Origin: a virus
IMG/VR virus record: IMGVR_UViG_3300020205_001179
Span: 1-21,606 of that record
DNA length: 21,606 nt
Reading direction: 5' to 3' (one strand)
The first letter of the stretch is position 1; the number at the start of each line of letters is the position of its first letter. The notes under the pieces were generated by a model. It was not told where the DNA came from, ran no database searches, and worked only from the letters and a program-made list of their open reading frames with translations. Both the position numbers and the translations under genes were made by a program. Of the stretch, positions 1 through 15,242 are shown piece by piece.

Positions 1-732
1 ATCAACTGACGCTTCAAACATTTCCTTCATAACCTTAAGCTCAATCTCTGTTGGCTTCTTAGGTAGGAAGTCGTTTAAATTAAACAAACCATGTGTCTTA
101 ATAGCGGCTTGTTCTTCATCATTTAATGGACGCTCACGACGACCCCATGATGAAGTTGAGTAATCAGCGTAACCGCCTTTTGAACCTTTCTTCATACGAT
201 AGTCAATACCGTGTACGTAATCTGTTGGCAAGTCTTCCAATTCTGGATCAACCAATGCCGCGCGGATTGATGTAAAGATCTGAGGACCGATAATAAATCT
301 ACGGATTGGGTTTGCTGGTGTTTCTTTTTCTTTTAGTCCGTCTTCAACAACAAAACCTTGGAAAATGTAACTACGTTTCTTCCAATACTTACGACCCATA
401 TCTTCTAGCGCAGGGTCTTTAAACCACGCACGAACTTCTGAAAGAATAGGACAAGTATCGCCATACATTTCTACGCATGGTACTTGAACAATAGTTGGTT
501 TGCTTTCTGATTCACCTTTGATTCCGGCGAATGGCAATTTAATCATTGCACGTTCAACCCAGAAAAATGTGTTATCAGCGTTACCATCTGGTAAGAATCT
601 AAGTGTAGATTCATCGCCTTCTTTTAAATTCCAGAACGCATAAATGGAATTGTCTCCACCGGTTCTGTTATTGTCTGATCCTTTATTTTCGGATGCCTTA
701 AGTTTTGCTCTAATTTCTGCCAAAGTTGCCAT
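1..732 (-). CDS. 32: gp32-like single-stranded DNA-binding protein (partial, C-terminus beyond left edge)
   Basis: The frame is open from the ATG at 732 to the window edge, giving 244 residues without a stop. The protein resembles T4 gp32, which coats ssDNA during replication, recombination and repair. Seen directly: an early stretch FWNLKEGDESTLRFLPDG (compare [20 protein letters not shown] in T4), a Cys pair in PCVEMYGDTCPIL in the zinc-ribbon region, then basic/aromatic KYWKKRSYIFQGFVVED matching the OB-fold strand that in T4 reads SYWANILVVKD. The start is supported by AAGGAG about 8 bases upstream. Only two of the four zinc ligands of T4 gp32 are obvious, so zinc binding may be reduced or absent. 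It follows the Ala/Pro-rich gene but is separated from it by a terminator and has its own candidate promoter and leader structure. Confidence 0.85.
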   Translation of the reverse strand, partial: MATLAEIRAKLKASENKGSDNNRTGGDNSIYAFWNLKEGDESTLRFLPDGNADNTFFWVERAMIKLPFAGIKGESESKPTIVQVPCVEMYGDTCPILSEVRAWFKDPALEDMGRKYWKKRSYIFQGFVVEDGLKEKETPANPIRRFIIGPQIFTSIRAALVDPELEDLPTDYVHGIDYRMKKGSKGGYADYSTSSWGRRERPLNDEEQAAIKTHGLFNLNDFLPKKPTEIELKVMKEMFEASVD

Positions 733-786
733 AATAGTTCTCCTTTATATATGCCTTTGTTTACTGCTCTTTATTTGCCTAATATT

Positions 787-807
787 GCTTTAAGATCTAC
801 TTAAAGC
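787..807 (-). promoter_or_regulatory. gp32 leader hairpin, candidate autogenous operator
   Basis: A perfect 8-bp inverted repeat (GCTTTAAG / CTTAAAGC, 5-base loop TAGAT) lies 55-75 bases upstream of the gp32 ATG. The following 50 bases to the Shine-Dalgarno are A-rich with no evident structure. In T4, gp32 represses its own translation by binding a pseudoknot some 40-70 bases upstream and then coating the unstructured leader; the geometry here is the same. I do not see a clear downstream complement to the loop, so a true pseudoknot is not demonstrated. Confidence 0.5.
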
Positions 808-808
808 A

Positions 809-840
809 AAAAGCGCATACAAGTAATTGTACACGCTTTT
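809..840 (-). terminator. Rho-independent terminator after the Ala/Pro-rich gene
   Basis: The minus-strand RNA can form a 13-bp stem with a 6-base loop (arms 840-828 and 821-809), followed by a run of five U. Two positions are G-U pairs on the minus-strand RNA but would be A-C mismatches on the plus strand, so the stem is specifically suited to minus-strand transcription. It lies about 50 bases past the stop of the 656-residue gene. Confidence 0.75.
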
Positions 841-844
841 ATTT

Positions 845-853
845 AGTATAGCA
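845..853 (-). promoter_or_regulatory. Candidate extended -10 promoter for gp32
   Basis: The minus strand reads TGCTATACT, an extended -10 (TGnTATAAT-type) element. The -35 region is weak (TTTAAG with a 16-base spacer). The element partly overlaps CTAAATA (846-840), the variant seen before gp18. Transcription would begin close to the top of the terminator hairpin. The same TATACT hexamer is the -10 of the much clearer gp1 promoter. Confidence 0.35.
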
Positions 854-891
854 AGAAGAATCTTGCCTTAAATGTGGTATTTTTACGCCAA

Positions 892-2862
892 TTATCTTAG
901 CCCAGCAATAGTTAACATTTTTTCTAAAAGTGCTCTGTCCGAACGACTCATAGTTTCTTGTAATGGTTTGCCAGTTCTTGGATCGTGTGTTGCGCCATAA
1001 TCTCTTTGCCATGCGGCTGCTTCGCTCTGTTTTCTTGTTGGACGAGGACCTGGATTAACTGCTGGTGTAGTTGTTGCCGCTGGTCGTGCGCCTTGATTAA
1101 CTCCGTCAGCCGCATCGGCCGCTGGAGCAGTTGCAGTTGGCTTTGCTCCTTGCCAGCGTGGATCATCAGGAGTCAATCCTGCATTTGGATTGCGAGCAGT
1201 TGCGGCTGCTCCTGGTGTTGTTGATCCATCATTTGCTGATAACAGATCAGCGGCAACTGCTTTTTCTGCGGCAGTTTGTGTAGTTGTGGCCGGTGGTGTT
1301 CCTGTTGTGGCCGGTGGTGTTCCTGTTGTGGCTGGTGGTGTTCCTGTTGTAGCCGGTGGTTTTCCTGATTGCCCTGATGTTCCTGCCGGTGCCTCTTGTC
1401 CTGCAATCTTTTTCATTAATGCTAAATCTCCGGCGCCAAGGAATGGGTTAGCTGCATGATCGGCAAGATTTGCTTTTGCGTTTGCAATTTCTTTAGGTGT
1501 ATATATAGCATTCTTACCTATGCCGCTGGCCGGCCCATCTGTTGGAAGAGGTTCACCGGTAGGCTGTAATTGTGTTGCGTTTGCACGCGCACTGTTAGCA
1601 TCGACTGTACCTTGGGCTAATCCCCGTTGAACAGCCTGTACTGCCGGAGTGTCTGAAGCTTTAGGAGTAGTATCTTTAAGCGCGGTAAACGGGGTTTTAC
1701 CAGGTGCTGCCAAGTTTGTATTAGTTGGTTCTGGGAGGGGCTTACCCGCTGGTCGTGCGCCTTGATTAACTCCGTCAGCCGCATCGGCCGCCGCGTTTGG
1801 TCCAGGTGCCATCTTATCGTGTGCAGCTCTAGTAATAGGACCGTATGCGCCATCTGGTGTAACTTTTAGTTTGTTCTGTAGAGCAATAACTGCTTGCTTA
1901 GTAGCTGGACCAAATTTTCCGTCGTCTGTAATGCCCAATCTCTTCTGTAGTGCTTTAACTTCTGGACCTTGACTACCTACCCCAAGAATACCAGGTTTCC
2001 CGCCTCCAGCTGCCGGTGCTGTCGGATTTCCTGCTTGTCCTGCTGCCGCCGGTGCTTGTTTTTTTAGTGTGTTATACTGATTAATTAACGCTGATAATTC
2101 TGGATTTGCTTCCGCACCTTGTTGACCTAATTCAGTAGCCAACCCGTCTAATTCTTTTTGTTCTTCGGGAGTTAGTGCTTCGTTTAATTTACTTTCTAAC
2201 AATCTCATTTTATTCATTAAACGACTCATTGTTTCGTTTATGCTTTCGCCTGTAAAACTACCTAAACTTTTAGCATGATCAATTTCAGCTTGTGTACGTT
2301 TTTCTCCAGATGCCGGTGCTGGAGCAGTTGCTGGTGCTGCAGCTGGAGTAGTTGCCGCAGGTGTAGTTGCTGGAGCAGTTGCCGCAGGTGCGCCTGCTTT
2401 AGCAATTAGTTCTTTGAATCTTGCAATCTTTGTAGCCTCAGGTCCCGGTGCTGCAGGAGCCGCTGCTGCAGGAGCCGCTGCTGCAGGAGCCGCTGCCGCA
2501 GGTGCTGCCGCTGGTGCTGCCGCTGGTGCTGCCGCTGGTTTACCTTTATTTGGAGCACGGGCTAAAATATACTTATCGGTAGGATCAGCCCCGCCTAACC
2601 ACTTTTGATCTTCTGGGCTCATGGCCTTCCACGCGGCATCTTTAGCAGGATCGTTTGGCCATGGACTGACTGGTGCTGCCGCAGGTGCTGCCGCTGCCGG
2701 TGCTGCCGCAGGTGCTGCCGCTGCCGGTGCTGCCGCTGGAGCAGGTTGCCCGGTTAATCTATTAACATTTGGGTCTTGCCCCGGAACTACTCGTTCTGAT
2801 AATTGATTCTGCTCATTTACTAAATTAATATATTTTCTTAATAATCCGTTCAATTGTGACAT
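892..2862 (-). CDS. Ala/Pro-rich protein with peptidoglycan-binding domain
   Basis: 656 residues. A helical N-terminus (residues 1-25) leads into long low-complexity Ala/Pro linkers (about 40-65, 108-140, 155-185). One PG_binding_1-type domain occupies about residues 291-351, with the typical pattern GSQGPEVKALQKRLGI, DGKFGPATKQAV and DGAYGPITRAA. A (GTPPATT)n repeat lies near residues 500-527, and the last residues are a short helix. No lysozyme, amidase or peptidase catalytic motif is visible, so this is a binder or scaffold rather than a complete endolysin. It may be a virion or ejected protein that contacts the cell wall, but that is inference. AAGGA 9 bases upstream supports the ATG at 2862. 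The gene lies 25 bases after the 850-residue gene, with no terminator between them, so the two are probably co-transcribed. The only recognised family member is the cell-wall-binding domain. Confidence 0.7.
   Translation of the reverse strand: MSQLNGLLRKYINLVNEQNQLSERVVPGQDPNVNRLTGQPAPAAAPAAAAPAAAPAAAAPAAAPVSPWPNDPAKDAAWKAMSPEDQKWLGGADPTDKYILARAPNKGKPAAAPAAAPAAAPAAAAPAAAAPAAAAPAAPGPEATKIARFKELIAKAGAPAATAPATTPAATTPAAAPATAPAPASGEKRTQAEIDHAKSLGSFTGESINETMSRLMNKMRLLESKLNEALTPEEQKELDGLATELGQQGAEANPELSALINQYNTLKKQAPAAAGQAGNPTAPAAGGGKPGILGVGSQGPEVKALQKRLGITDDGKFGPATKQAVIALQNKLKVTPDGAYGPITRAAHDKMAPGPNAAADAADGVNQGARPAGKPLPEPTNTNLAAPGKTPFTALKDTTPKASDTPAVQAVQRGLAQGTVDANSARANATQLQPTGEPLPTDGPASGIGKNAIYTPKEIANAKANLADHAANPFLGAGDLALMKKIAGQEAPAGTSGQSGKPPATTGTPPATTGTPPATTGTPPATTTQTAAEKAVAADLLSANDGSTTPGAAATARNPNAGLTPDDPRWQGAKPTATAPAADAADGVNQGARPAATTTPAVNPGPRPTRKQSEAAAWQRDYGATHDPRTGKPLQETMSRSDRALLEKMLTIAGLR
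1077..1122. repeat. 46-bp direct repeat, copy 1
   Basis: This stretch is identical over 46 bases to 1746-1791. The offset of 669 bases is a multiple of three, so both copies encode the same peptide (ADAADGVNQGARPA) within the Ala/Pro-rich gene. Identity includes all third-codon positions. Confidence 0.9.
1282..1365. repeat. 21-bp tandem repeat, four units
   Basis: Four consecutive 21-base units, with a few substitutions in the outer ones, encode (GTPPATT)n in the Ala/Pro-rich protein. The period is exactly seven codons, so copy-number change would keep the frame. Confidence 0.85.
1746..1791. repeat. 46-bp direct repeat, copy 2
   Basis: Second copy of the exact in-frame repeat at 1077-1122. 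It lies just after (C-terminal to) the peptidoglycan-binding domain in the protein. Confidence 0.9.
2447..2539. repeat. Ala/Pro codon microsatellite-like tract
   Basis: Near-repeats of GGAGCCGCTGCTGCA and GGTGCTGCCGCT on the plus strand encode PAAA-type linkers of the minus-strand gene. They are much richer in GC than the surroundings. A similar tract lies at 2671-2745 and a looser one near 2311-2394. Confidence 0.75.
2671..2745. repeat. Ala/Pro codon microsatellite-like tract
   Basis: Repeats of GGTGCTGCCGC with short spacers encode the first (APAAAPAAA)-type linker, just after the N-terminal helix of the Ala/Pro-rich protein. Confidence 0.75.
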
Positions 2863-14800: not shown

Positions 14801-15187
14801 GCCTAGCGGAGCATCGGCTAACGCATCTAATTGATTTAGGTCAATATCAGCACGTACAACATACGCACGGTTGCTTACACCTAAATAACTGTATGCCGCT
14901 TGTAGTCCGTATTCGTTCTGTTCACCAGCATGAATAGGATTGTTATTAGCATCAGTTTTAAACACAGGTGTGCCAAATGTGTCTGCTAAATCTTTCTGAC
15001 TTGTTAATAGATAAACTTGGCCAGCGTTAGCGGCAAGTGTACCTCCAGCAATTCCAGTTGCTGATCCGTTTTGCTTGCTTTCAGCAGAGGCAACGATAAT
15101 TAAGGGTGTTGTACCCGGTGCGGCAGGTGTATAGAACGATTCGTCTATTACGGTAACTGCTACGCCTGGTGAACTTAGTTGAGCCAT
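11813..15187 (-). CDS. 18: Tail sheath protein (gp18), greatly enlarged
   Basis: 1124 residues against 659 in T4. The N-terminus (AQLSSPGVAVTVIDESFYTP, then YGLQAAYSYLGVSNRAYVVR near 95-115) and the C-terminal 400 residues are sheath-like: FNVKRFVRDYINVE, QRDTLASIKVNPLTFITGTG, YGQYTRARAASSLDRINVAR, LVIYLRRQFAQLAKPYVFEP and the closing FIYIPLRLKN. Between about residues 130 and 700 lies a large insertion with at least three short modules of the form G-x-(L/I)-W...W (near 336-372, 597-630 and 662-697). In contractile tails the sheath drives injection; insertions normally project outward. GGAG 8 bases upstream supports the ATG, and a CTAAATA element lies farther upstream. The insertion may decorate the tail surface; that is inference. 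Confidence 0.93.
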   Translation of the reverse strand: MAQLSSPGVAVTVIDESFYTPAAPGTTPLIIVASAESKQNGSATGIAGGTLAANAGQVYLLTSQKDLADTFGTPVFKTDANNNPIHAGEQNEYGLQAAYSYLGVSNRAYVVRADIDLNQLDALADAPLGDPEDNTYWFDTAATQYGIFEWNSAGARTTGGQTFTIKYPTIITLVSKLSNGAGSAPRASIGYVGDYAIDATTTVNTLYFKNSSGSWVEVGTPEWVASWPAVTGTQALPSLGSGKSIKINTNVFDDPANLSALVSAINASAPLTTLGISAEIVNGCLALYSDSTAILIEAQNGTAGLTALGLTAGTYAPTALTISPHTSVPQYKTFDASPRPTGSLWIKTTEPNNGARWRVKNYNAASGAWVEKAAPLYSTNQAALASLDPTGGGINLALKSIYVQYNTDEGGINHNGPQLANFKLFYRAGVGATSIQSVDMSPSVWTAAKAVSFTIEESLTGNSQLSAPVTIAFTTAGAAGGTLDAETLVAEIGSSGLININAEYDAATGKVTISHRQGGDFRIVDSSAAGGLLSALFTPYIADPDNADVATLNLWRDPSDPSSATKYLASLWSSTVVSSANGERVGFASASPDAPSTIPADGKLWYNSMIDEVDLMIHNGTTWVGYKDATAITINQAPGGTTTDPAGPIVSATRPAVQSDGSALANGDIWIDTSDLENFPRIYKFNFTTKKWVLVDNSDQSTEEGILFRDARWGINGGSNLGATQTDSTIIELLTSNFLDFDAPDPALYPKGMLLWNLRRSGFNVKRFVRDYINVEADNNRMVGNPSMSTYYPHRWVSEAGNQEDGSGTFGRKAQRKVVIQALQALVNANQQIRDEESRVFNLIACPGYSELVGEMVSLNYDRGLTAFVVADTPARLTPDATSLSNWGNNVNGALEDNDQGLVSSDEYLGFFYPWGFTSDNIGNNVVVPPSHMMLRTIALSDNVSYPWFAPAGTRRGGITNATAVGYITSEGEFQSVALNNGQRDTLASIKVNPLTFITGTGLVNYGQYTRARAASSLDRINVARLVIYLRRQFAQLAKPYVFEPNDTITRNEIKGAAESLLLELVGQRALYDYLVVCDTSNNTPARIDRSELYLDVAIEPVKAVEFIYIPLRLKNTGEIKGLG

Positions 15188-15220
15188 TTTGTGATCTCCA
15201 ATGAATACTATTTCTAATTG

Positions 15221-15227
15221 TATTTAG
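15221..15227 (-). promoter_or_regulatory. Late-promoter-like CTAAATA before gp18
   Basis: The minus strand reads CACTAAATACAA. With T4-like spacing the leader would be about 28 bases and would contain the GGAG ribosome site, a conventional leadered arrangement. Confidence 0.5.
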
Positions 15228-15242
15228 TGGATTTTGGCTTTT

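Follow-up and report, generated by a model that had tools for sequence, protein, structure and literature searches.

The approximately 160 bases upstream of the gp32 gene in the analysed window, a 21.6-kb virus record (21,606 nt, IMGVR_UViG_3300020205_001179), appear to constitute a genuine gp32 control region of a T4-related jumbo phage, the layout of which is found again in approximately 80 close and approximately 80 more distant relatives. In the reading that we consider best, to which we assign a probability of about 0.5, the region would provide a gp32-specific leader, composed of a hairpin and a repeat tract, that follows the logic of the T4 autogenous operator using a different element and that is served by a promoter lying within a terminator. 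This candidate gp32 operator is defined and conserved in a large jumbo-phage clade and poses a clear question, the recognition of the hairpin and GGCA repeats by gp32. The promoter-in-terminator arrangement would represent a compact form of gene insulation, and its evolution can be traced across relatives with and without a U-tract. A preliminary description of this DNA was mostly right in its observations, which are partly confirmed, and its interpretation is partly supported.

Table 1. Coordinates of features of the gp32 control region in the window
Feature	Position	Strand	Remarks
gp32-type single-strand DNA-binding protein gene	1..732	-	extends past window edge; ATG 732-730
Shine-Dalgarno AAGGAG	740..745	-	sequence
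Second AGGCA repeat	752..756	-	at -24
First AGGCA repeat	776..780	-	at -48
Leader hairpin H3, 10 bp, loop TAGAT	785..809	-	arms 809-800/794-785, perfect; -77 to -53
U-tract	812-808	-	after G-C base of H2 stem
Terminator hairpin H2, 13-14 bp	809..840	-	arms 840-827/822-809; two G-U pairs in minus-strand RNA
-10 TACAAT	826..831	-	within H2; predicted start about 820-818
T4-late-like motif ACTAAATA	840..847	-	in sigma-70 spacer; predicted late start about 834
-35 TTGCTA	849..854	-	TTG invariant in relatives
Small hairpin GCAAGA-TTCT-TCTTGC	851..866	-	overlaps -35; upstream of predicted gp32 start

The minus-strand open reading frame that starts at 732 matches PHROG 1192 (E 3e-54), and its sequence identifies it as a T4-gp32-type single-strand DNA-binding protein of the RaK2/121Q/PA5oct-like jumbo phages. 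Among the tblastn matches listed, the named gp32 relatives are large phages of the RaK2/121Q/GAP32/PA5oct/Phosso kind, and the better jumbo-phage matches show 43-58% identity. The gene order, terminase large subunit, structural gene and gp32, agrees with that of GAP32, in which UvsX comes after gp32. The upstream gene (892-2862, minus strand) encodes a 656-residue Ala/Pro-rich protein with long low-complexity stretches, residues 292-352 of which match endolysin families and are probably a peptidoglycan-binding domain. A megablast search of the region against phage records returned no match, an Rfam scan of it gave only sub-threshold matches (the best, ylbH, at 25 bits versus a cut-off of 50), and a search of the open literature for the gp32 leader of jumbo phages found nothing on it. 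The intergenic RNA is more stable than its dinucleotide shuffles (z = -3.2, 0 of 200). The leader downstream of the terminator folds no more stably than its shuffles (z = -0.45), so the single sequence is weak evidence and support is supplied by the relatives, which are incomplete contigs. Many of these are closely related; the shuffle counts given below therefore overstate independence, and more weight belongs to the tree counts.

The promoter within the terminator hairpin

The conserved promoter is composed of the hexamers at 854-849 and 831-826. Across the 77 leaders with a scored promoter, the TTG of the -35 element is invariant, and the two elements are separated by 17 nt in 76, inside the 16-18 nt of a sigma-70 promoter. 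The hexamer at the 831-826 position reads TACAAT, TATACT, TATAAT, TAGTAT or TATAGT among the leaders, and the -35 element is TTGACA or TTGACT in more distant relatives. Conservation shows a predicted sigma-70 promoter whose -10 element is embedded in the hairpin of an intrinsic terminator. The preliminary description had placed an extended -10 element (TGCTATACT) at 853-845; these letters are present but not conserved, relatives having TTGCAAACAT, TTGCAAGACT and other sequences, and TATACT at 850-845 is not retained. It had also proposed that promoter and terminator overlap such that initiation and the full hairpin are mutually exclusive, and both points hold, by way of a different promoter. 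The small hairpin that it noted at 866-851 is present; the 3' arm contains part of the -35 element, and the hairpin occurs only in close relatives, with little compensatory change as judged by inspection.

H2 agrees with the stem reported earlier at 840-809, with G-U pairs on minus-strand RNA. In a MAFFT alignment that was not fitted to the structure, the 13-bp stem is 99% paired over 40 relatives, with 42 cells changed on both sides; its pairing and double changes were matched by 0 of 500 shuffles, and slid registers are 14-75% paired. On a gp32 coding-sequence tree, 49 changes of pair type are counted in H2. The G-U pairs are located on the gp32 strand, which indicates an RNA structure. Similar to other intrinsic terminators, H2 combines a stable stem with a U-tract and lies just past the upstream gene, whereas, unlike ordinary intrinsic terminators, it holds the -10 element of the next gene in its stem and loop.

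Start sites in this region are predictions from promoter geometry. The predicted gp32 transcript starts near 819, inside the terminator, and the terminator therefore should be unable to form in gp32-promoter RNA. The mean energy of H2 is -14.0 kcal/mol in read-through RNA, weakens to -7.9 kcal/mol in RNA from the predicted late start and is 0 for transcripts of the sigma-70 start, which indicates a stem that can form in read-through RNA and not in gp32-promoter RNA. RNA from the upstream gene would form the full H2 stem and presumably terminate there; RNA from the gp32 promoter would start in the 3' arm of H2, lack the stem and continue, so that gp32 would be insulated from the upstream genes.

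The spacer of the sigma-70 promoter carries ATAAATA or CTAAATA in 66 of the 77 leaders. The late-like motif shows a strand bias in front of genes, with 33 sense versus 8 antisense occurrences across the window and four related contigs. From the spacing between motif and start in T4 late promoters, a late-type promoter at the spacer motif would start near 834, and the late transcripts that it contributes would carry a truncated hairpin at their 5' end. CBB, a RaK2-like phage, has ATAAATA in front of structural genes and encodes a gp55-like sigma factor (PMC5259590). As in the T4-type late promoters (TATAAATA) predicted in CBB and GAP32, ATAAATA or CTAAATA lies upstream of phage genes, and a gp55-like sigma factor occurs in GAP32 and in two group B contigs, G003 and G004, that carry gp55 homologues; gp55 was not found on the contigs of the close relatives, which are incomplete. 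Unlike an ordinary T4-type late promoter, the predicted spacer motif sits inside a sigma-70 promoter. CTAAATA is also found in front of a large gene whose start lies at 15187 (about 15187-15230, minus strand; tail-sheath-like by position), and a similar leader in a relative likewise has CTAAATA, as expected of a late promoter. Several early-type leaders of the G001 and G002 contigs (L093-L104) read TATACT-ATAGGC[A/T]..AGTAAAC..AAGGAGCG, so that for some early-type promoters the predicted start coincides with an AGGC motif.

The leader hairpin and the repeat tract

A stem of 8-13 bp occupies the H3 position in 41 of 41 close leaders, two of which were re-read by hand, as a GGCA inside the stem had ended the automatic search early. 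At a fixed register, pairing is 100% over 20 distinct arm pairs, compared with 80% when the 3' letters are shuffled; the arms are the best stem of each leader, so the 100% is partly by construction, and the controls are the fixed register, arm swapping, sliding and tree counts. Swapping the arms lowers pairing to 77%, 29 double changes are observed (0 of 500 shuffles as good), and the tree records 49 changes of pair type with no pair ever broken. The pairs include 14 G-U and no A-C. The alignment was anchored by hand, and the divergent leader L022, which MAFFT misaligned, was excluded. These patterns of substitution show both H2 and H3 to be RNA structures under selection. The H3 stem has a predicted formation of 0.96 and begins 7-14 nt, in most cases 9, after the predicted 5' end. 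The perfect hairpin given as 8 bp at 807-787 in the preliminary description is present and perfect, with 10 bp rather than 8 (809-785); the compensatory changes that were to be looked for in it are found among relatives, and promoter geometry places the predicted mRNA start upstream of it, not downstream.

A search for a conserved H-type pseudoknot involving the H3 loop, also suggested at that stage, was negative. No conserved complementarity of the loop to the leader was found in 40 relatives; it extends over 3-4 nt or less in most, at a place that is not conserved. With no conserved downstream partner for the loop, a T4-like pseudoknot is not indicated.

The tract between H3 and the Shine-Dalgarno sequence is 37-60 nt long and about 50-52% A. 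It had been described as an unstructured A-rich leader running to AAGGAG; it is A-rich, and at an unpaired fraction of 0.58 versus 0.61 for shuffles it is no more open than composition predicts, with no sign of selection for an unpaired leader beyond that composition. The tract contains GGC[A/T] repeats, two in the window and 2-4 in relatives, the last of which lies 20-26 nt before the ATG in most leaders. The final 75 nt of the gp32 leader hold at least two GGC[A/T] in 78 of 78 cases in group A/B and in 71 of 77 in group C, as opposed to just 8 of 87 other leaders from the same phages. A scan of approximately 600 kb gave 15 candidates, of which, on reading, only those of the four gp32 genes were A-rich non-coding leaders with such an arrangement. 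T4 gp32 has a site size of 7 nt; no 7-nt periodicity of the GGC[A/T] repeats was found. A weak start-site hairpin, CAAAG/CUUUG (759-721), surrounds the Shine-Dalgarno sequence and the ATG. Relatives have UAAAG/CUUUA and CAUAG/CUAUG at this site, a direction that fits covariation with too few independent changes.

Turnover in more distant relatives

Nearly all group B loci retain a hairpin over the -10 element, commonly of 7-15 bp and in most cases without a U-tract; a distinct upstream terminator is present at several of them. H3 is absent in group B, and the covariation of the 5' stem UGUGC/GCACA in this group is weak (261 of 5000 swaps as good). Group C1 displays the order TTGACW, 17 nt, a TATAAT-like element, a 5' hairpin, ATGGCA repeats and the Shine-Dalgarno sequence. 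The 5' hairpin of group C1 has G-U pairs and compensatory changes, and its sequences are unrelated to that of the window; L132, L147, L150, L163 and L184, for which the automatic search picked the wrong stem, were disregarded. In these comparisons, the leader architecture is retained while the sequence turns over.

Comparison with the T4 operator and competing explanations

In T4 and RB69, a folded element, a repeat tract and the ribosome-binding site follow one another in the gene 32 leader, and gp32 represses (PMC535899, PMC3014915). The folded element of T4, of approximately 28 nt, nucleates gp32 binding; the repeat-bearing stretch after it exceeds 40 nt and runs through the ribosome-binding site, and both are required (PMC535899, PMC3014915). 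The leader described here shares the location in front of gp32, a folded element at approximately -70 and an A-rich repeat tract that extends through the ribosome-binding site. The T4-like distance claimed in the preliminary description is borne out, H3 spanning -77 to -53 and the T4 pseudoknot lying approximately 67 nt upstream (PMC3014915). The T4/RB69 operator is composed of a pseudoknot and UUAAA repeats, whereas a plain 10-bp hairpin and AGGCA repeats are observed here, with promoter and terminator fused just upstream. Since neither an H-type pseudoknot (40 relatives) nor UUAAA/UAAA repeats, in place of which GGC[A/T] occurs, were found, the leader is not assigned to the T4-type operators.

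It is about an even bet that the same autogenous logic operates here as in T4 gene 32, the order, spacing and gene specificity being alike. By analogy, gp32 in excess of single-stranded DNA would load on the hairpin and repeats of its own mRNA and block translation, the covarying hairpin approximately 10 nt from the predicted 5' end and the GGC[A/T] repeats leading to the Shine-Dalgarno sequence acting as the target. A plain hairpin would replace the T4 pseudoknot and GGCA would replace UUAAA. Against such an operator, GGC is not A+U-rich, unlike the UUAAA repeats of T4; the missing pseudoknot, the leader openness expected from composition, the lack of H3 in group B and the single AGGC motifs of some early-type leaders also weigh against it. 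The broader proposal that these leaders represent a second class of autogenous gp32 operator, one that lacks a pseudoknot (hairpin plus GGCA repeats), across the jumbo-phage clade, with the promoter -10 built into the upstream terminator and one inverted repeat serving as -10 site, terminator or 5'-end hairpin according to the start, is tentative and somewhat doubtful.

The main rival is compatible with the autogenous reading, under which the 5' hairpin may additionally shield the mRNA from decay. It holds that the hairpins are 5'-end mRNA stabilisers against RNase E 5'-end-dependent decay, with no self-regulation of gp32 through the leader, and is unlikely, though a serious contender. Similar to bacterial stabilising stem-loops, the hairpin is at or near the predicted 5' end (within approximately 10 nt for groups A and C1), and the base of the upper H2 stem is where the predicted late start falls. 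The T4 gene 32 mRNA, moreover, has unusual stability, and RNase E cleaves it at -71, immediately before the pseudoknot (PMC3014915). Unlike in the bacterial examples, gene-specific GGC[A/T] repeats come after the hairpin, and a stabiliser leaves their position between hairpin and Shine-Dalgarno sequence unexplained. Recognition of the hairpin and repeats by a different RNA-binding protein of phage or host (RegA- or CsrA-like) instead of gp32 would accommodate a GGC motif without the A+U-richness of the T4 gp32 repeats, as well as the single AGGC motifs of some early-type leaders, but the near confinement of repeated motifs to gp32 genes makes this improbable.

H3 could also serve solely to pair the U-tract inherited by starting in the terminator and so to keep it off the Shine-Dalgarno region; in group A leaders, its 5' arm overlaps the last letters of that tract. 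This role is very improbable: penalising H3 in folding barely moves the predicted accessibility of the Shine-Dalgarno sequence (0.75 to 0.70), four group B loci have a U-tract without H3, and a U-tract of this kind is lacking in group C1, whose hairpin covaries. The inverted repeat could instead act at the DNA level, as an operator bound by a repressor, and not as an RNA hairpin. This would suit its centring on the -10/start region and its persistence, minus the U-tract, across most of group B, but is scarcely credible given the frequent G-U pairs in gp32-strand RNA and the compensatory changes at several positions with no fixed site.

Other possible folded elements are seen in the gp32 leaders of named phages. 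A possible H-type pseudoknot lies approximately 75 to 5 nt upstream of gp32 in the PA5oct-like Pseudomonas phage vB_Pa-PAC2 (L083), with the stem AGUUUUGC/GCAAAACU and the loop AGCUAACCCGA, of which UAACCC can pair with a downstream GGGUUUA (-8.0 kcal/mol; 2.3% of shuffles as good). No close PA5oct relatives for assessing covariation were found in IMG/VR (best segment 60%). In Agrobacterium phage Atu_ph07 (L084) and Phosso (L082), the last 80 nt before gp32 contain a small hairpin followed by short direct repeats, AGCACAA-like and GGCTC/GACTC as seen by eye. The hairpin loops are, again by eye, complementary to the repeats, UAAUU with AAUUA and GAGU with [A/G]CUC.
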